In this document: positions 48,687-57,169 of the stretch, piece by piece
Layout: each line of letters starts with the position of its first letter
How positions within the stretch are numbered: position 1 is the stretch's first letter
Made by a program: the position numbers and the translations under genes
The notes under the pieces: generated by a model
What the model saw: the letters and a program-made list of their open reading frames with translations, nothing else
What the model was told of the DNA's origin: nothing
Database searches by the model: none
DNA from: Carbonactinospora thermoautotrophica
GTDB taxonomy: Bacteria; Actinomycetota; Actinomycetes; Streptomycetales; Carbonactinosporaceae
Direction: 5' to 3'
DNA length: 64,000 bases
NCBI RefSeq assembly: GCF_001543895.1
Contig: NZ_JYIJ01000019.1
Location: 930,001 to 994,000 of the forward strand

Positions 48687-49245
48687 GGCTGCTCCTGTTT
48701 CCCGGGAGGAACGTGGGCGTCCCTCGGCCGGTACGTGCTGAGGCTGACGATCAGGGCCGGCCGTCTCGTCGACGCGCCCGGGGCCGCAGGCGTGCCCTTG
48801 CGACCGATTGGACCGGTTCGGTGCTGACCTCCTTGACGTCCGTTGGCTCGACGGTCACGGAACGGCCAGCGGCGTCCACCTATGCGTCACCGCTGGATTC
48901 CCGGTCAGACTCCGCAGGAACCGGTTCCGGGACGTGGGTCCGGATCCTTCGACCGGCCAGGGATCCCGGAAGGCCGTTACCGCCTCCGGGCTTGATCTTC
49001 CTTGAGACGATTTTCCAATCCACAAAATATGGTAATGAGGGGAATGAAAGTCGCACTAGGGTATGAAATGGAATAATCGCGCCTGCTGTCCAACCTCTGA
49101 CGGCCCGCGACCACTGGCCGTGCGGCCACAGCTGGGACGGCGTCCCGCCTGAGGTCACCACGGGCGCGTCAGACCGCCTCGTTCACCCGTGAGGCAGCGA
49201 CCCTCAGGGCCGGAACGAGACGCACGATCGCGGAGAGGTGTCCAA
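48687..49245. other. Divergent intergenic region, no gene seen
   Basis: These 559 bp hold no supported gene. An AT-rich island at 49010-49075, unusual for this genome, includes GGGTAT at 49059-49064, similar to the -10 element of SigB-type stress promoters. It could drive the plus-strand DUF7144 gene at 49246. Confidence 0.4.
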
Positions 49246-49680
49246 ATGGCAGCACCACAACAGGTTCCCCGGGACTTCTACGGCGAGGTTCAGCCGACCG
49301 GCTGGCTCGGCTGGATCTTGTTCGCCGGCCTCGTCATGCTTCTCCTCGGGATCTTCCACGCCATCGCCGGTCTGATCGCCTTGTTCAATGCCAACTACTA
49401 CCTCGTCACCCCCAATGGGCTGGTCGTCAACGTCGACTTCGCCGTATGGGGCTGGGTGCACCTGATCCTCGGCATCGTGGTAGCCGTCGCCGGGTGGGCC
49501 GTCATGGTCGGTCAGACCTGGGGACGGGTCGTCGGAATCGTCCTCGCCCTGCTCAGCGCGATCATCAACCTCGGCTTCCTGCCTGCCTACCCGGTCTGGT
49601 CGGTCATCTTCATCGCGTTGGACGTCGTCGTGATCTACGCGCTGGCTGTCCACGGCAAGGAAGCACGAACCCTCGCCTGA
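49246..49680 (+). CDS. DUF7144-type four-helix membrane protein
   Basis: The 144-residue protein has four hydrophobic helices (ILFAGLVMLLLGIFHAIAGL; VWGWVHLILGIVVAVAGWAV; VVGIVLALLSAIINLGFLPA; WSVIFIALDVVVIYALAVHG). This is a common actinomycete stress-linked membrane family as I recall it. GGAGAGG lies 7 nt before ATG 49246. Like HdeD next door it may belong to a general stress response; this is inferred from the family. Confidence 0.75.
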   Translation: MAAPQQVPRDFYGEVQPTGWLGWILFAGLVMLLLGIFHAIAGLIALFNANYYLVTPNGLVVNVDFAVWGWVHLILGIVVAVAGWAVMVGQTWGRVVGIVLALLSAIINLGFLPAYPVWSVIFIALDVVVIYALAVHGKEARTLA

Positions 49681-50230: not shown

Positions 50231-52201
50231 ATGGAGAAGAATGTCAGCCGCTGGCTGTTCGTCGCCTTCGCGGCCGTGGGCATGTGGACCCTCGGCCAGT
50301 CGACGGCGAACGCCGTGGCTCAGGTGCCGACGATCGCATCGGCCCTGACCTCCGTTGCAGACCACCGTGAGGACAACGGTGGCTACGACGGCAAGGGTGA
50401 TCACCGTGATGGAAAGGGTGATCACCACGGCAAGGGTGGCCACGACGACAAGGGTGGCTACGGCAAGGGCCACGACGGCAAGGGTGGCCACGACGACAAG
50501 GGTGGCTACGGCAAGGGCCACGACGGCAAGGGTGGCCACGACGACAAGGGTGGCTACGGCAAGGGCCACGACGGCAAGGGTGGCTACGGCAAGAAGCACG
50601 ACGACGGCGACGTGACCGTCGCGAAGAGCGGTGACGGTGGTAAGGGTGGCGCCGGTGGTGACGCTGACAGCAAGAACGTCGCGGTCAGCGGGGATTCCGG
50701 TGACTCCGGCGACTCCGGCCACACCGGTCGCAACAAGAGCGAGGTCTGGTGTGTCTCCCTCTTCAATGAGGTGAACTGCGACGTCGACACCATCTCCGGG
50801 GACTCTGGTGACACCGGTGACACCGGCGACACCGGCGACGCCACCAACATCAGCAGCACCGAGGGTGGTCACGGTGGCAAGGGCGGTCGCGGCGGGGACG
50901 CCGTAGCCGTGAACAAGAGCGGCGGCCACAAGGACAAGGGCCACCACGGCAAGAAACACGACGGCAAGAAGCACGACGACAAGGGCCACCACGGTAAGAA
51001 GCACGACGGTAAGAAGCACGACGACGACGGCGATGTGACCGTCGCGAAGAGCGGTGACGGTGGTAAGGGTGGCGCCGGTGGTGACGCTGACAGCAAGAAC
51101 GTCGCGGTCAGCGGGGATTCCGGTGACTCCGGCGACTCCGGCCACACCGGTCGCAACAAGAGCGAGGTCTGGTGTGTCTCCATCTTCGGTGAGGTGAACT
51201 GCGACGTCGACACCATCTCCGGGGACTCTGGTGACACCGGTGACACCGGCGACACCGGCGACGCCACCAACATCAGCAGCACCAAGGGTGGTCACGGTGG
51301 CAAGGGCGGTCGCGGCGGGGACGCCGTAGCCGTGAAGGCCAACGACGACCACGGCAAGAAGCACGACGGCAAGGGCCACGACGGCAAGGGCCACGACGGC
51401 AAGGGTGGCTACGGCAAGGGCGGCTACGACGACAAGGATGACCACGACGACAAGGGCCGCCACGGCAAGGGCCACGACGACAAGGGTGGCTACGGCAGGG
51501 GCGGCTACGACGACAAGGGCCGCTACGGCAAGGGCGGCTACGACGACAAGGATGACCACGACGGCAAGGGTGGCTACGGCAAGGGCCACGACGACAAGGG
51601 TGGCCACGACGACAAGGGCCACGACGGTAAGAAGCACGACGACGACGGCGATGTGACCGTCGCGAAGAGCGGTGACGGTGGTAAGGGTGGCGCCGGTGGT
51701 GACGCTGACAGCAAGAACGTCGCGGTCAGCGGGGATTCCGGTGACTCCGGTGACTCCGGTCACACCGGCCGCAACGAGTCCTACCCGTTCGCCTTCGCGT
51801 TCACCGATGACGTGGACGCCGACTTCTTCGTGGGCTCGGGCGACTCCGGTGACACCGGTGACACCGGTGAGACCGGCAACGCGCTGAATGTCAACTACAC
51901 CGCCGGCGGCGACGGTGGTAAGGGCGGTCGCGGCGGGGACGCCGTGGCCGTGAACAAGGACGTCGACCACTACGGCAAGGCCCACTACGGCGAGAAGCAC
52001 TACGGCAAGGCCCACTACGGCAAGAAGCACTACGGCAAGAAGCACTACGGCAAGGCCCACTACGGCAAGAAGCACTACGCCAAGGGCTACAAGGGCAAGG
52101 GCAAGGCCCACTACGGCAAGGCCCACTACGGCAAGAAGCACTACGCCAAGGGCTACAAGGCCAAGGGCTACAAGGCCAAGGACCGCTACCGCGCGGCTTG
52201 A
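50231..52201 (+). CDS. Secreted Gly/Asp/His/Lys-rich modular repeat protein with HYGK tail
   Basis: The 656-residue precursor has a signal peptide (MEKNVSRWLFVAFAAVGMWT, cleavage near TANA, residue 28). Then come: a linker with a 16-residue repeat (GKGGHDDKGGYGKGHD three times); three modules of about 100 residues at roughly 128-228, 269-368 and 475-575; His/Lys/Asp-rich linkers; and a tail of about 11 xHYGK-type pentads plus GYKAK units. Each module is symmetric: GDGGKGGAGGDADSKNVAVS, then (GDS)n-GHTGRN, a central stretch, (GDS/GDT)n and GGKGGRGGDAVAV. Modules 1 and 2 hold two Cys each (EVWC, EVNC); module 3 none. AAAGGA precedes the ATG. It looks like a structural surface, coat or adhesive protein; I recognise no characterised family. 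Confidence 0.8.
   Translation: MEKNVSRWLFVAFAAVGMWTLGQSTANAVAQVPTIASALTSVADHREDNGGYDGKGDHRDGKGDHHGKGGHDDKGGYGKGHDGKGGHDDKGGYGKGHDGKGGHDDKGGYGKGHDGKGGYGKKHDDGDVTVAKSGDGGKGGAGGDADSKNVAVSGDSGDSGDSGHTGRNKSEVWCVSLFNEVNCDVDTISGDSGDTGDTGDTGDATNISSTEGGHGGKGGRGGDAVAVNKSGGHKDKGHHGKKHDGKKHDDKGHHGKKHDGKKHDDDGDVTVAKSGDGGKGGAGGDADSKNVAVSGDSGDSGDSGHTGRNKSEVWCVSIFGEVNCDVDTISGDSGDTGDTGDTGDATNISSTKGGHGGKGGRGGDAVAVKANDDHGKKHDGKGHDGKGHDGKGGYGKGGYDDKDDHDDKGRHGKGHDDKGGYGRGGYDDKGRYGKGGYDDKDDHDGKGGYGKGHDDKGGHDDKGHDGKKHDDDGDVTVAKSGDGGKGGAGGDADSKNVAVSGDSGDSGDSGHTGRNESYPFAFAFTDDVDADFFVGSGDSGDTGDTGETGNALNVNYTAGGDGGKGGRGGDAVAVNKDVDHYGKAHYGEKHYGKAHYGKKHYGKKHYGKAHYGKKHYAKGYKGKGKAHYGKAHYGKKHYAKGYKAKGYKAKDRYRAA
50429..50574 (+). 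repeat. 48-bp tandem repeat, three units plus a partial
   Basis: Units begin at 50429, 50477 and 50525, with a partial fourth from 50573. Each encodes GKGGHDDKGGYGKGHD. The near-identity at DNA level indicates recent slippage expansion within the repeat-protein gene. Confidence 0.85.
50612..50914 (+). repeat. Gly-Asp-Ser/Thr module 1 of the repeat protein
   Basis: It starts at GTGACCGTCGCGAAGAGC. Its first roughly 140 bp appear identical to those of the modules at 51035 and 51653. It encodes the two-Cys central stretch with EVWCVSLFNEVNCDV. Confidence 0.85.
51035..51334 (+). repeat. Gly-Asp-Ser/Thr module 2 of the repeat protein
   Basis: Nearly identical to module 1 over its whole length. 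The central stretch differs only slightly (SIFGEVNCDV in place of SLFNEVNCDV). Both cysteines are kept. Confidence 0.85.
51653..51956 (+). repeat. Gly-Asp-Ser/Thr module 3 of the repeat protein
   Basis: The left half matches modules 1 and 2. The central stretch is replaced by an aromatic, Cys-free sequence (YPFAFAFTDDVDADFFVG) and the right half is diverged (GETGNALNVNYTAGGDGG). Confidence 0.85.
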
Positions 52202-52220: not shown

Positions 52221-52249
52221 GGGGGCTGCTCCAGCCAGGAGCGGCCCCC
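52221..52249 (+). terminator. Terminator of the repeat-protein gene
   Basis: GGGGGCTGCTCC (52221-52232) pairs with GGAGCGGCCCCC (52238-52249) with one mismatch around a 5-nt loop. TTCGGGGTCT follows. It lies 20 bp past the stop codon. Confidence 0.8.
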
Positions 52250-52570
52250 TTCGGGGTCTGAGATAGGCCCGCCCAGACAGGCCCGGCCGCACCTCGCGGC
52301 CGGGCCTGCGGTCGCTCAGCGAAGCACCAAGTTGTACTCCGTGGCCGGGGCCAGGGTGACCAGCGACCCGCACCGGGTCTGTGTCGAGCAGGCAGTACGC
52401 GGATCGCTATCCGTTTCCGAAGGGTCGGCAACCGGCTCCGGGACCCTTTCGTCGACTGAGCGAGGTGCGCAGCGGGAGCCCCCATCTCCGAGGCTCCCCC
52501 TGCGCGATGAGTGGATGGATCGTTATCCGCTGCGCGCGGACCGCGGCCTCCAGCCGGCCGAATGGCCGAA
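52250..52570. other. Intergenic stretch, no gene seen
   Basis: Between the repeat-protein terminator and the end of cbtA no gene is supported; long ORFs on either strand lack family resemblance. Confidence 0.4.
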
Positions 52571-53305
52571 TCACGCCGCCCCGTCAGCGGGAGCGGGCCG
52601 CAGGGCACGCTCCCCGAGCAGGCCGAACACCGCGCCCAAACCGCCCCACAGCACCAGCTGGGTGGCCACCGACAGCAGGCGGAACTGCCACAGCAGATGG
52701 GCCGGCACCTCGATCGGGTCGGTGTTCGCGGGCAGCAGCCATATGCCGGCGAGCGCGGCGACCACGATCGCCGCCATCGCCAGATGCTGCACCGGCTCGG
52801 GTCGGCCCTGTTCGGCGAGCCGCCGCCGGGCCCACCAGGCCAGCCCCACACCGAGCACGCCCAGCACGATCGCCATCAGCCAGGCTGCCGTCCGTTGGTT
52901 GACGGTGGCCGGGTCGCCTACTCCCGGGGGGTTGGCCGGGTACTTGAGGAACGGCAGCAGGAACACCCCGACGAACCCCGCGGCCGCGAGCGCGAGCGCT
53001 TGCCGCCACGGCCGTTTCCGGCGGTCCCGCGCGTACACCCCGGCGTACACGAGCCCGAACAGCAGGCCGAGCGAGCCGCCCGTGACCGTGGTCGCCACCA
53101 CCAGGCCGAACTGCTGCACACCCCGGGAGAACACCTCCTGTTCCGCCGGTTCGCCGCCCGCGGTGTGCGCATGCGCGTGCTCGCCCTCCAGCCGGATCGC
53201 CGCGCCGATCGTGGGCTCGGCGGCGGCGAGCCCGAACAGGCCGGCGAAGAGGCCGGCCAGGAGGCCGGCCAGCAGTCCTCGCCGCAACAAGGCTGGGACC
53301 GTCAC
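52571..53305 (-). CDS. cbtA: CbtA family cobalt transporter subunit
   Basis: The 244-residue membrane protein has about six helices and the CbtA pattern: LLRRGLLAGLLAGLFAGLFG, the GEPAEQEVFSRGVQQFGLVV region, LGLLFGLVYAGVYARDRRKR and FLKYPANPPGVGDPATVNQR. An extracellular His-rich loop (GEHAHAHTAGG) may gather metal. GTG 53305 is preferred because GAGCGGGA lies upstream and homologues begin there; GTG 53335 would overlap cbtB. With CbtB it is thought to take up cobalt, in line with the cobalamin riboswitch upstream. Confidence 0.88.
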   Translation of the reverse strand: MTVPALLRRGLLAGLLAGLFAGLFGLAAAEPTIGAAIRLEGEHAHAHTAGGEPAEQEVFSRGVQQFGLVVATTVTGGSLGLLFGLVYAGVYARDRRKRPWRQALALAAAGFVGVFLLPFLKYPANPPGVGDPATVNQRTAAWLMAIVLGVLGVGLAWWARRRLAEQGRPEPVQHLAMAAIVVAALAGIWLLPANTDPIEVPAHLLWQFRLLSVATQLVLWGGLGAVFGLLGERALRPAPADGAA

Positions 53306-53318
53306 AATGAGGTCCCGC

Positions 53319-53519
53319 TCAGTGACAGGGCGCACCGAGCAGGTGGCGGCCGTCGTGCGTGAACTCGTGCAGGTAGTTGGCGGTCTGCGCGGCCTTGCCC
53401 AGGACCGGGGTGAGCAGTTGGCCCTGGTCCAGCAGCGTGGCGAACAGGGCGAACAGCGCGGCCAGGACCGCGAGCGTACCGGCGAGGACGGCCGGGTTCT
53501 TCAGAACGTGTGCCGACAT
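53319..53519 (-). CDS. cbtB: CbtB family cobalt transporter subunit
   Basis: The 66-residue protein has one membrane helix (AVLAGTLAVLAALFALFATL) and the family's C-terminal metal motif HEFTHDGRHLLGAPCH. AGGAGG lies 6 nt before ATG 53519. cbtB precedes cbtA by 13 bp, the standard order, and both lie downstream of a cobalamin riboswitch on the same strand. Confidence 0.9.
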   Translation of the reverse strand: MSAHVLKNPAVLAGTLAVLAALFALFATLLDQGQLLTPVLGKAAQTANYLHEFTHDGRHLLGAPCH

Positions 53520-53559
53520 CATCAGCCTCCTTCGGGGTCTACCGCCCCATCTGGATCGG

Positions 53560-53785
53560 CAGCGACGGGCCAGTGTCCTGACTCCCGGATCATCGCTTCC
53601 CCCGGCCTTCCAGCCCTCGCGGGCCGTGGCCATCGCGGGTCCGGCTCCCCGATCGGCCAGCGGAGCGCGGGCCGTGCCGGCTCCGTGGCGATCGGTCGGC
53701 CTTCCCAGGGTTCTGCTCCCCGGTCACAGTGGCGGGACCGTGCCGGACTCGCACCGGCTTCCTGGCTTTCCGTCGCACGAAATCA
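53560..53785 (-). promoter_or_regulatory. Cobalamin (AdoCbl) riboswitch upstream of cbtBA
   Basis: Read on the minus strand from about 53785, it starts GGAAAGCCAGGAAGCCGGTG, reaches the B12-box-type core CCGCCACTGTGACC, then AACCCTGGGAAGGCC, and near 53566 ends with GTCAGGACACTGGCCCG. These are the conserved landmarks of actinobacterial cobalamin riboswitches. It should repress cbtBA when cobalamin is plentiful. Exact ends are approximate. Confidence 0.88.
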
Positions 53786-54460: not shown

Positions 54461-55783
54461 CTACGGGGTTCGGTAGGAGTCCTGCGGAGGGACGCCAGGG
54501 TACCCGCTGGGCGGGTACGACGGACCAGGCGGTGGCAGGGATACGCCATCCGGGTGACTGAGCGGGCCGACGGGAGGCGGCGGTCCGCCGCTCGGTTGGG
54601 TGGGGATCGGTGCGGTGCCGAAGGGCTGTTGGGCGGCGGCGGGCTGGAGGATCTGCTTGCGGGCGGACAGCAGGCCGAGCAGTTGTTGTTCGCGCTGGCT
54701 GAAGTCGTGCAGGTCCTGGCCGCGGGAGGCTTTCTCGCGCAGGAAGGCGAGTTCGGTGGCGGCGAGCTGGAGGTCGATCATGGCTCGTTTGCCGCGGTCG
54801 CCGAGGGTGCGCTTGGCCCAGTCGCGGGCGCGCTTGCGGCCGGGGAAGGTGCACAGGGCGGGTAGTTCCCAGTTGGCGATCCAGCCGGCGGCGGCGTAGG
54901 CGGGCAGGTGGCGCTCCAGCACCTTCAGCTCCATCCGCCGCGACCAGCGGATGAGCGCGACCCACCCGACGAACACCGGCACCATCACGAGCACGTACGT
55001 GACCAGGAGCGAGATGGGGAGGTAGCCCGAGCCGTTCCAGATCAGGTGCAGCAGCACGCCGGCGGACCAGCCGCCGACCGGGGCCAGCACCTTCAGCGCC
55101 GGGTTGCGGGTGGTCACCGCCACACCCAAGCCGATGCCGGTGAGCGAGGTGTACAGCGGGTGGGCGAACGGCCTGAAGACGCCGCGCAGGAGGAACTGGC
55201 CCACCGCGCCGCCGACGCCCAGCTCGGCGAACTGGGTGGAGATGTACAGGATGTTCTCGGTGAACGCGAACCCCGCCCCGATGATCCCGCCGAGCACGAT
55301 GCCGTCGACGACGCCGTCGAACTCCCGGCGCCGCAACAGCACGAACACCAGGAGGCCGAGCCCTTTGACGGCTTCCTCGGCGAAGGGCGCCACCAGGGTT
55401 CCGGGGACGCCGAGCAGGGCGCCGACGCCCTGGTTCAGGAAGATCGCCAGGAACGTGGCCACACCGGCGCCCCACCCGAAGGCGAACACCAGGAAGCCGA
55501 TCGGCTCGGGCTCCAGCCGGTCGAGCCACATGAACGTGGCGATGACCACCGGCACCGGCAGGATGGCCAGCGGCAGGCCGATGAAGAGCGGGGCCACGCC
55601 GACGCCGCCCACGATGACGGCCATCACGTACAGGAAGCCGATCAGGAAGACCGCCGTGATGGCGACCCACTTGAGGACGCGCTGCGCGTTGGCGGAGCGG
55701 GCTGGCCGGTAGGGGCCGGAGACGGACACCGGAGCCGGTCCTGGGTACGACGGCTGAGGGGGCGGGTAAGGCGGAGTAGTCAC
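54461..55783 (-). CDS. PrsW-family intramembrane metalloprotease (copy 1)
   Basis: The 440-residue protein has a Pro/Tyr-rich N-terminus, seven to eight helices with the PrsW motif PFAEEAVKGLGLL (EExxK), EFDGVVDGIVLGG and HPLYTSLTGIGLGV, then a cytoplasmic helical C-terminal region. PrsW-type proteases cut anti-sigma factors such as RsiW by site-1-like cleavage. GTG start at 55783. The C-terminal third shares about 366 bp of apparently identical DNA with copy 2. The rhomboid gene follows. Confidence 0.85.
   Translation of the reverse strand: MTTPPYPPPQPSYPGPAPVSVSGPYRPARSANAQRVLKWVAITAVFLIGFLYVMAVIVGGVGVAPLFIGLPLAILPVPVVIATFMWLDRLEPEPIGFLVFAFGWGAGVATFLAIFLNQGVGALLGVPGTLVAPFAEEAVKGLGLLVFVLLRRREFDGVVDGIVLGGIIGAGFAFTENILYISTQFAELGVGGAVGQFLLRGVFRPFAHPLYTSLTGIGLGVAVTTRNPALKVLAPVGGWSAGVLLHLIWNGSGYLPISLLVTYVLVMVPVFVGWVALIRWSRRMELKVLERHLPAYAAAGWIANWELPALCTFPGRKRARDWAKRTLGDRGKRAMIDLQLAATELAFLREKASRGQDLHDFSQREQQLLGLLSARKQILQPAAAQQPFGTAPIPTQPSGGPPPPVGPLSHPDGVSLPPPGPSYPPSGYPGVPPQDSYRTP
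54581..54946 (-). repeat. 366-bp direct repeat (copy in first PrsW gene)
   Basis: Positions 54581-54946 appear identical to 55952-56317, an offset of 1371 bp. It encodes a large part of the cytoplasmic C-terminal region. A second shared block at 55051-55128 has the same offset (56422-56499). Confidence 0.85.
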
Positions 55784-55867: not shown

Positions 55868-57169
55868 TCAGCGGGGCATGCCCGGCGGGAACTGGGGTGG
55901 GAACTGCGACGGGAACTGGGGTGGGAACTGGGACGAAACCTGGGGTGGGACCGGTCCGCCGCTCGGTTGGGTGGGGATCGGTGCGGTGCCGAAGGGCTGT
56001 TGGGCGGCGGCGGGCTGGAGGATCTGCTTGCGGGCGGACAGCAGGCCGAGCAGTTGTTGTTCGCGCTGGCTGAAGTCGTGCAGGTCCTGGCCGCGGGAGG
56101 CTTTCTCGCGCAGGAAGGCGAGTTCGGTGGCGGCGAGCTGGAGGTCGATCATGGCTCGTTTGCCGCGGTCGCCGAGGGTGCGCTTGGCCCAGTCGCGGGC
56201 GCGCTTGCGGCCGGGGAAGGTGCACAGGGCGGGTAGTTCCCAGTTGGCGATCCAGCCGGCGGCGGCGTAGGCGGGCAGGTGGCGCTCCAGCACCTTCAGC
56301 TCCATCCGCCGCGACCACTGCACCAGGAGGAGCCAGCCGACGAACACCGGCACCATGAACAGGATGTACGTGACGAAGTAGGCGAGCTGGTTGAACGTCG
56401 AGAAGTTCCAGATGAAGTGGAGCAGCACGCCGGCGGACCAGCCGCCGACCGGGGCCAGCACCTTCAGCGCCGGGTTGCGGGTGGTCACCGCCACACCCAG
56501 CCCGATGCCCGTCATGGCGGTGTACAGCGAGTGGGCGAACAGGCCCATCCCGTCGCGGATGAGGAAGAGGAACACCGTCGCGAGGAAGCCGGCGCCCGCG
56601 CCATGTGCCTCAGCGGTCGCCTGGAACTGGATGCCGTAGTACTGGATGTTCTCGATGAAGGAGAAGCCGCCGCCGATGATGCCGCCGAGCACGATGCCGT
56701 CGACGACGCCGTCGAACTCCCTGCGCCGGAACAGCGCGAACAGCAGTACACCCAGGCCCTTCAGGGTCTCCTCGACGAACGGCGACACCAGCGGGGCGGG
56801 CACGCCCAGCAGGGCGGCGCCCAGTTCGTTGAGAAAGCCGCTGAAGACGGTCGCGATGAGGGCGCCCCAGGCGAACGCGAAGAGCAGGTGCTTGAGCGGC
56901 TCCGGTTCCAGGCGGTCGATCCACAGGAAGGTGGCGATGAGGATCGGCATCGGGAGCGCGGCCAGCACCACGCCGAGGGCGAACCCGATCGGGCCGCCCA
57001 TGGCGAAGAGCCCCACGAGGGTGAGCAGGCCGAGCAGAAGGAAGACGAGGCCGCCCGCGATCCACAGCAGGACACGAACGGCGTTCCCCGAGCGGGCCGG
57101 TCGGTAGGGGCCAGGCATCGGCCCCGGGGACATCTGGTGTGGTGGTGGTGCATACGGCTGCGTGTTCAC
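55868..57169 (-). CDS. PrsW-family intramembrane metalloprotease (copy 2)
   Basis: The 433-residue paralogue of the gene at 54461 has the same layout: Pro-rich tip, helices with PFVEETLKGLGVL, EFDGVVDGIVLGGIIGGGFS, and HSLYTAMTGIGLGV, then the shared C-terminal region. It differs in ending with a short FPPQFPSQFPPQFP repeat. The membrane domains are diverged while the C-terminal region is almost identical, so the latter is probably kept uniform by gene conversion. GTG start at 57169. Own terminator at 55821. Confidence 0.85.
   Translation of the reverse strand: MNTQPYAPPPHQMSPGPMPGPYRPARSGNAVRVLLWIAGGLVFLLLGLLTLVGLFAMGGPIGFALGVVLAALPMPILIATFLWIDRLEPEPLKHLLFAFAWGALIATVFSGFLNELGAALLGVPAPLVSPFVEETLKGLGVLLFALFRRREFDGVVDGIVLGGIIGGGFSFIENIQYYGIQFQATAEAHGAGAGFLATVFLFLIRDGMGLFAHSLYTAMTGIGLGVAVTTRNPALKVLAPVGGWSAGVLLHFIWNFSTFNQLAYFVTYILFMVPVFVGWLLLVQWSRRMELKVLERHLPAYAAAGWIANWELPALCTFPGRKRARDWAKRTLGDRGKRAMIDLQLAATELAFLREKASRGQDLHDFSQREQQLLGLLSARKQILQPAAAQQPFGTAPIPTQPSGGPVPPQVSSQFPPQFPSQFPPQFPPGMPR
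55952..56317 (-). repeat. 366-bp direct repeat (copy in second PrsW gene)
   Basis: Partner of 54581-54946, apparently without mismatch. Such identity between otherwise diverged paralogues indicates recent conversion or unequal exchange. Confidence 0.85.

Follow-up and report, generated by a model that had tools for sequence, protein, structure and literature searches.

Within a 64,000-nucleotide stretch of the Carbonactinospora thermoautotrophica genome (hereafter the window; C19:930001-994000 of a 5.13 Mb genome), one open reading frame rich in Gly-Asp-Ser/Thr tracts raises the question of what kind of protein it encodes, whether that protein is an orphan, and what role it may play outside the cell. 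The ORF (50231-52201, ATG start) specifies 656 amino acids, with 25.5% Gly, 15.5% Asp, 13.0% Lys, 7.3% His (48 residues) and 4.4% Tyr, and with just two Pro and four Cys. Its GC by codon position (0.66/0.46/0.86) identifies it as a genuine high-GC gene. An 843-aa antisense ORF on the opposite strand was rejected as coding and is most plausibly an artefact of codon-position GC. The layout of the product (Table 1) confirms a preliminary description of the locus, which had listed a signal peptide, three modules, linkers rich in His, Lys, Asp and Gly, and about 11 terminal pentads; eleven were counted.

Table 1. Features of the module gene and its product, in window coordinates.
Feature	Position	Strand	Basis
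Whole gene, 656-aa secreted three-module protein	50231..52201	+	ORF, codon-position GC, homologues
Signal peptide MEKNVSRWLFVAFAAVGMWTLGQSTANA	50231..50314	+	Sequence; comparison with relatives
N-terminal region and first Gly/His/Asp/Lys linker, KGGHDDKGGYGKGHDG repeats	50315..50602	+	ORF
Module 1, residues 125-231, Cys-pair hairpin WCVSLFNEVNC	50603..50923	+	Profile A3 120.7 bits; A1/A2 matches
Module 1 arm A, GDGGKGGAGGDA, 4 triplets	50630..50665	+	Conserved Gly columns
Module 1 arm B, GDSGDSGDSGHTGRN, 5 triplets	50690..50734	+	Conserved Gly and Ser/Thr columns
Module 1 central hairpin KSEVWCVSLFNEVNCDVDTI, predicted two strands	50735..50794	+	AlphaFold block means 65 and 71
Module 1 arm C, GDSGDTGDTGDTGDA, 5 triplets	50798..50842	+	Conserved columns
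Module 1 arm D, GGHGGKGGRGGDA, 4 triplets	50864..50902	+	Conserved columns
Linker 1-2, 34 aa, His/Lys/Asp-rich (KKHDGKKHDDKGHHGKKHDG)	50924..51025	+	ORF; comparison with relatives
Module 2, residues 266-372, Cys-pair hairpin WCVSIFGEVNC	51026..51346	+	Profile A3 118.2 bits
Linker 2-3, 99 aa, Gly/Asp/His/Lys/Tyr-rich	51347..51643	+	ORF; comparison with relatives
Module 3, residues 472-578, centre without Cys (ESYPFAFAFTDDVDADFFVG)	51644..51964	+	Profile A3 109.6 bits
C-terminal tail, eleven xHY(G/A)(K/E) pentads and KGYKAKGYKAK	51965..52198	+	Pentad count; sequence
Hairpin GGGGGCTGCTCC/GGAGCGGCCCCC, possible terminator without T-run	52221..52249	+	Hairpin scan
Second strong downstream hairpin	52278..52308	+	Hairpin scan

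The three modules are about 107 aa long, with protein identities of 93% (modules 1 and 2) and 75% (modules 1 and 3). At the DNA level modules 1 and 2 are 97% identical, which points to a recent duplication, and module 3 is 80-81% identical to either; the A3 scores of 109.6-120.7 bits come from a profile partly built on these same modules. The GDS/GDT tracts, previously described as formally Gly-X-Y, are real, but each holds merely 4-5 triplets, arranged as four arms per module. Counted over runs of at least four triplets, glycine at every third residue accounts for 66 triplets in the protein; 2000 composition-matched shuffles averaged 8.3 and never exceeded 31, and chance therefore does not explain the pattern.

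The gene is isolated: a leader of about 550 nt lies between it and the preceding stop codon, and two strong hairpins (z = -4.2) occur downstream. The long leader reported earlier thus stands; a U-run is absent from both hairpins, the first of which is a possible terminator. A scan limited to sigma-70-type promoters found none for this gene, and there is no conserved operon partner, as no neighbor of the window gene recurs near its relatives. Directly upstream on the same strand lies a DUF7144 membrane protein gene (49189-49680 +). Convergent with the module gene are CbtA/CbtB-type cobalt transporter genes (52571-53633 -), the CbtB match falling slightly under the Pfam cut-off. Two tandem PrsW-type intramembrane protease genes (54461-55783 - and 55868-57169 -) lie next to each other.

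Neither the whole protein nor its profile matched any entry in Pfam, NCBIfam or PDB; tblastn against phages and plasmids gave no match, and no relative was found in viral contigs, where the DNA pattern used below had one match. Likewise, no believable relative emerged from an early contig scan with two module peptides, or from profile A1 (the three near-identical window modules) searched against 392 order and 395 class genomes, with 0 of the 391 other order genomes positive. Profile matches at E 0.001-0.1, read singly, proved unrelated (e.g., Obg GTPase), and the matches in 11 other genomes from a whole-protein search of the order were His/Lys/Tyr-rich stretches or wrong frames and were not counted. 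A DNA-pattern scan for GDxGDxGDxGxxG found the whole module in Lentzea albidocapillata and in a Thermoleophilia MAG; most of its 115 matches were simple GDT/GDS repeats, unrelated to the module. In a test independent of profile A3, a single window module matches two Lentzea genes at E 1.4e-18 and 5.9e-16, and the Thermoleophilia MAG at E 2.2e-12. A six-module profile added one distant actinobacterial genome (G1089, E 4e-12) from a 396-genome sample of the phylum, an eleven-module profile matched 26 of 249 genomes of Lentzea's family, Pseudonocardiaceae, and profile A3 gave no further match in 259 class genomes. Going by these counts from sampled order, class and family genomes, the family is patchy and concentrated in Pseudonocardiaceae. 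The apparent orphan status was a limit of the sampling and sensitivity of the early searches, and the label "unrecognised", in the sense of an orphan, is not borne out: full-length relatives share the same type of signal peptide and carry 3-6 modules. The variation in module copy number that might be sought in related genomes was indeed found, with up to six modules per protein, and several genomes have at least two such genes. That the window protein belongs to a conserved, uncatalogued actinobacterial family is well supported by these sequence comparisons. In a quick tree based on few columns, the window modules cluster together (SH-aLRT 99), suggesting that they probably multiplied within their own lineage or were homogenised, and Lentzea-type modules cluster by position. 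A Dehalococcoidia fragment (L069, 2-517 +) with similar GDS/GNS arms and a Cys-rich centre gave no profile match at 1e-3 and was not counted; it is possibly a distant relative. Lentzea-type genomes encode, ahead of the module gene, a conserved secreted protein with PVTxPV repeats (L175 458-1264 +, L208 4702-5574 +, L212 6740-7582 - and 15 other loci), which mostly ends in WCYxYGRxHPS or similar and has no Pfam match; the pair resembles a two-gene unit, which the window lacks.

Across the 134 modules collected in the family alignment, conserved columns define four arms with a glycine spacing of 3 and a plan of 4-5-5-4 triplets. Arms A and D (4 triplets) are of the GGx type and arms B and C (5 triplets) are G-x-S/T, with Ser/Thr conserved at the third triplet position; at the middle position Asp is common, with Asn, Ser, Thr or Ala instead in relatives. 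The A-B and C-D connectors are alike, about 11 residues long (NxA..SG and AxNxSxT.GG), and the B-C centre spans 16-20 residues in simple modules, most of which have two Cys. Exactly two Cys occur in 80 of the 134 modules, with 5 as the commonest spacing, and 46 have no Cys, like window module 3, so a disulfide is not essential. Many Lentzea-type proteins have, in their later modules, a long loop rich in His, Lys, Trp and Gly (e.g., HGWKHDWKNHGTKSW) in place of this centre. In orthologous module pairs dN is mostly well below dS (e.g., 0.054 vs. 0.38; weakly so in the L174/L214 pair, 0.178 vs. 0.22), which argues that the module is a protein under selection and not drifting low-complexity DNA.

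By eye, the N-terminus of the window protein is clearly a plain Sec signal peptide. Side by side, it resembles those of relatives (MHKYVQRGLLAAVLSGGFVLLGQTMASA, MRKNVKTGLLAAAVATGLVLAGPTASA), all of an M-x-K-x-V type, judged by eye, that nearly all intact copies carry; secretion of the family is considered well supported. The protein ends in KAKDRYRAA, with no sortase signal of the kind made up of LPxTG, membrane helix and basic tail. An LPFTG-TM-RR end occurs only in the Thermoleophilia relative (L176 1894-3585 +), which combines two modules with a Gly-Pro-Ala collagen region (PF01391); its LPFTG motif and membrane helix place it at the cell wall. His/Lys/aromatic segments recur among relatives, as (GHHKGY)n linkers in L234/L235 and as HGWKHDWKNHG centre loops in Lentzea-type modules, and linkers and tails are acidic and His-poor in several others (L174, L230). 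In the window protein and its relatives, these segments look cohesive. The preliminary view of a secreted, deliberately expressed modular protein thus gains support from relatives that appear secreted, one of them sortase-anchored, and the adhesive-like character it ascribed to the His/Lys/Tyr-rich segments is in keeping with the recurrence of this chemistry. The likeness to cross-linked His/Tyr/Lys adhesive or coat proteins is one of composition.

The fold of the module was approached by comparison with known glycine-rich bundles, in which antiparallel polyproline II/polyglycine II (PPII/PGII) helices of 3-4 G-x-x triplets pack with glycine inward (PMC10235112, PMC9436101). Short Gly-x-Ser/Thr arms with almost no Pro fit a PGII bundle better than collagen, and a four-arm bundle capped by the hairpin is proposed because PPII/PGII bundles use like arms. 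AlphaFold returned low confidence for seven modules (mean pLDDT 52, pTM 0.20, arms below 55), and for three modules too, its most confident part being the two-stranded central hairpin; given this low confidence, the bundle is not demonstrated and the arms could be disordered. In the proposed arrangement, the arms would pack antiparallel as PGII (PPII) helices with glycine inward, forming a compact rigid unit that would be stable extracellularly and in which the paired Cys of the central hairpin may form a disulfide. The modules would then act as spacers along the chain, and the His/Lys/Asp/Gly linkers and the HYGK tail as flexible cohesive segments that could tether the protein to the cell surface or join it to other chains through electrostatic and His/Tyr contacts, perhaps with metal or oxidative cross-links. 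Chains assembled in this way may help to build the coat of hyphae or spores, or an extracellular matrix, which would place the window member at the surface.

The low AlphaFold confidence would also suit a disordered matrix protein, a flexible chain whose His/Tyr/Lys repeats drive coacervation, with unfolded Gly-Ser/Asp modules as solubilising spacers, and the xHYGK pentads do resemble the phase-separating GHGxY repeats of histidine-rich beak proteins (PMC6884462). However, the 134 modules keep their Gly and Ser/Thr columns and fixed arm and connector lengths, which argues for a fold and renders this reading improbable. Were the GDS/GDT tracts of three chains instead to form short Gly-X-Y triple helices, with the rest as spacer, the protein would be collagen-like, an analogy drawn in the preliminary description. 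Glycine at every third residue, the genuine Gly-Pro-Ala region of the Thermoleophilia relative, and a weak likeness of two relatives to streptococcal Scl adhesins (NCBIfam, far below cut-off) all speak for it. This analogy has to be given up as very improbable because the tracts never exceed 5 triplets and are nearly Pro-free, PF01391 has no match in the window or in Pseudonocardiaceae proteins, and four symmetric arms of fixed length around a hairpin, with 11-residue connectors, suit an intramolecular fold and not a continuous rod. Least probable of all is a Ca-dependent RTX-like beta-roll, with Asp/Gly repeats folding on Ca2+ once secreted: the protein is secreted, its repeats are Asp/Gly-rich, with Asp common at the middle position, and T1SS-independent analogues are possible in principle, but the period is 3 rather than 9, neither GGxGxDxUx nonapeptides nor a hydrophobic residue at the RTX position is present, the hemolysin-type Pfam models have no match, and relatives exchange the Asp.

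The main rival to a coat or matrix function is a secreted metal-binding or metal-buffering protein, whose 48 His and many Asp would bind Zn, Ni, Co or Cu. The His and Asp contents, the His-rich relatives and the CbtA/CbtB-type genes immediately downstream on the other strand agree with such a role, but it is the modules and not the His segments that are conserved, the linkers and tails of L174 and L230 are acidic and His-poor, and the transporter genes are convergent in a neighborhood that does not recur near relatives; overall, this role is considered unlikely. Among coat, metal-binding matrix and adhesive, the three roles suggested beforehand, we therefore rank coat/matrix first, as the most economical function when the cohesive segments, a chaplin tail described below and the LPFTG relative are taken together. 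We give about even chances to the full reading of a Sec-secreted, multi-module coat or matrix protein with PPII/PGII four-arm modules and cohesive His/Lys/Tyr segments, belonging to an uncatalogued family of filamentous-type actinobacteria. The further proposal of a new architecture, in which tandem disulfide-capped four-arm PGII bundles with cohesive segments make up a hyphal or spore surface layer that acts beside the chaplins in some actinobacteria, is possible but doubtful.

Carbonactinospora (formerly Streptomyces) thermoautotrophica, placed by NCBI taxonomy in its own family within Kitasatosporales, is a sporulating thermophile with highly hydrophobic hyphae and spores; the decorations on its mature spores range from hairy to rugose (PMC4735515). 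Its genome encodes chaplins, on a contig other than that of the window, and a RuBisCO large chain gene is present. The same genome encodes a second secreted protein with a (KKHDDKK)n tail (L002 1234-1761; C18:96826-97080; also L243), which has two Cys (NACGND...DDTSCSN) and no convincing Pfam family, and which has the His/Lys/Asp tail chemistry in common with the window protein, not the module. Although the module is conserved beyond a single actinobacterial family and reaches at least one further class, it is missing from Pfam, NCBIfam and PDB, so that recognising it would give a name and a structural hypothesis to hundreds of proteins now classed as "hypothetical" or low-complexity. If the proposal holds, the module would represent a PGII bundle family distinct from the springtail and mycobacterial ones, a short, tandem form of a rare fold that is open to genetic study, and a natural design for protein materials that are both rigid and sticky, probably from a thermophile. 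Beyond the chaplin/rodlin system, the window protein also becomes a concrete candidate for what decorates the surface of aerial hyphae and spores.

Among known systems, the collembolan glycine-rich antifreeze proteins (HhAFP/sfAFP, GrAFP; PPII bundle) likewise have short G-x-x arms of 3-4 triplets, joined by loops and held by disulfides in a small rigid secreted-type unit (PMC10235112). The window protein differs from them in its 4-5-5-4 plan, Gly-x-Ser/Thr arms, tandem modules and His/Lys/Tyr segments; no PDB sequence match links the two, and there is no reason to expect ice binding in a probable thermophile. The GGxGGxGGDA arms look like the PGRS repeats of mycobacterial PE_PGRS proteins, which are secreted or surface proteins of actinobacteria whose PGII sandwich model consists of antiparallel helices, each with 3-4 triplets (PMC9436101). 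Unlike these, the window protein has discrete modules of about 100 aa instead of long sails, a central hairpin, and a signal peptide instead of ESX export, and neither a PE domain nor a GRPLI linker was found in it with Pfam and NCBIfam. The bacterial collagen-like surface proteins Scl1/Scl2 (PF01391) share glycine at every third residue and a surface role, but the window protein lacks their continuous Pro-rich tract and any PF01391 match. Tandem C-terminal His/Tyr/Gly pentapeptides are also found in the histidine-rich squid-beak proteins, where GHGxY pentads drive phase separation (PMC6884462); the organisms are unrelated, xHYGK adds Lys, and the resemblance is one of composition only. Chaplins (PF03777) are, like the window protein, secreted proteins of actinomycetes, and they form part of the coat; the chaplin domain is absent from the window protein (Pfam), and a different fold class is expected. 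A genuine chaplin of a Streptomyces of the same order (L007, ORF around 1252-1614 +; PF03777, 6e-28) carries a tail with KKDHGKKHHAKKDHGKKHYDKK, KKDHGKKHHAKKDHGKKHYDKKDHGKKDYGKKHH and KKDHGKKHH, which indicates that such tails do occur on a cell-surface protein.
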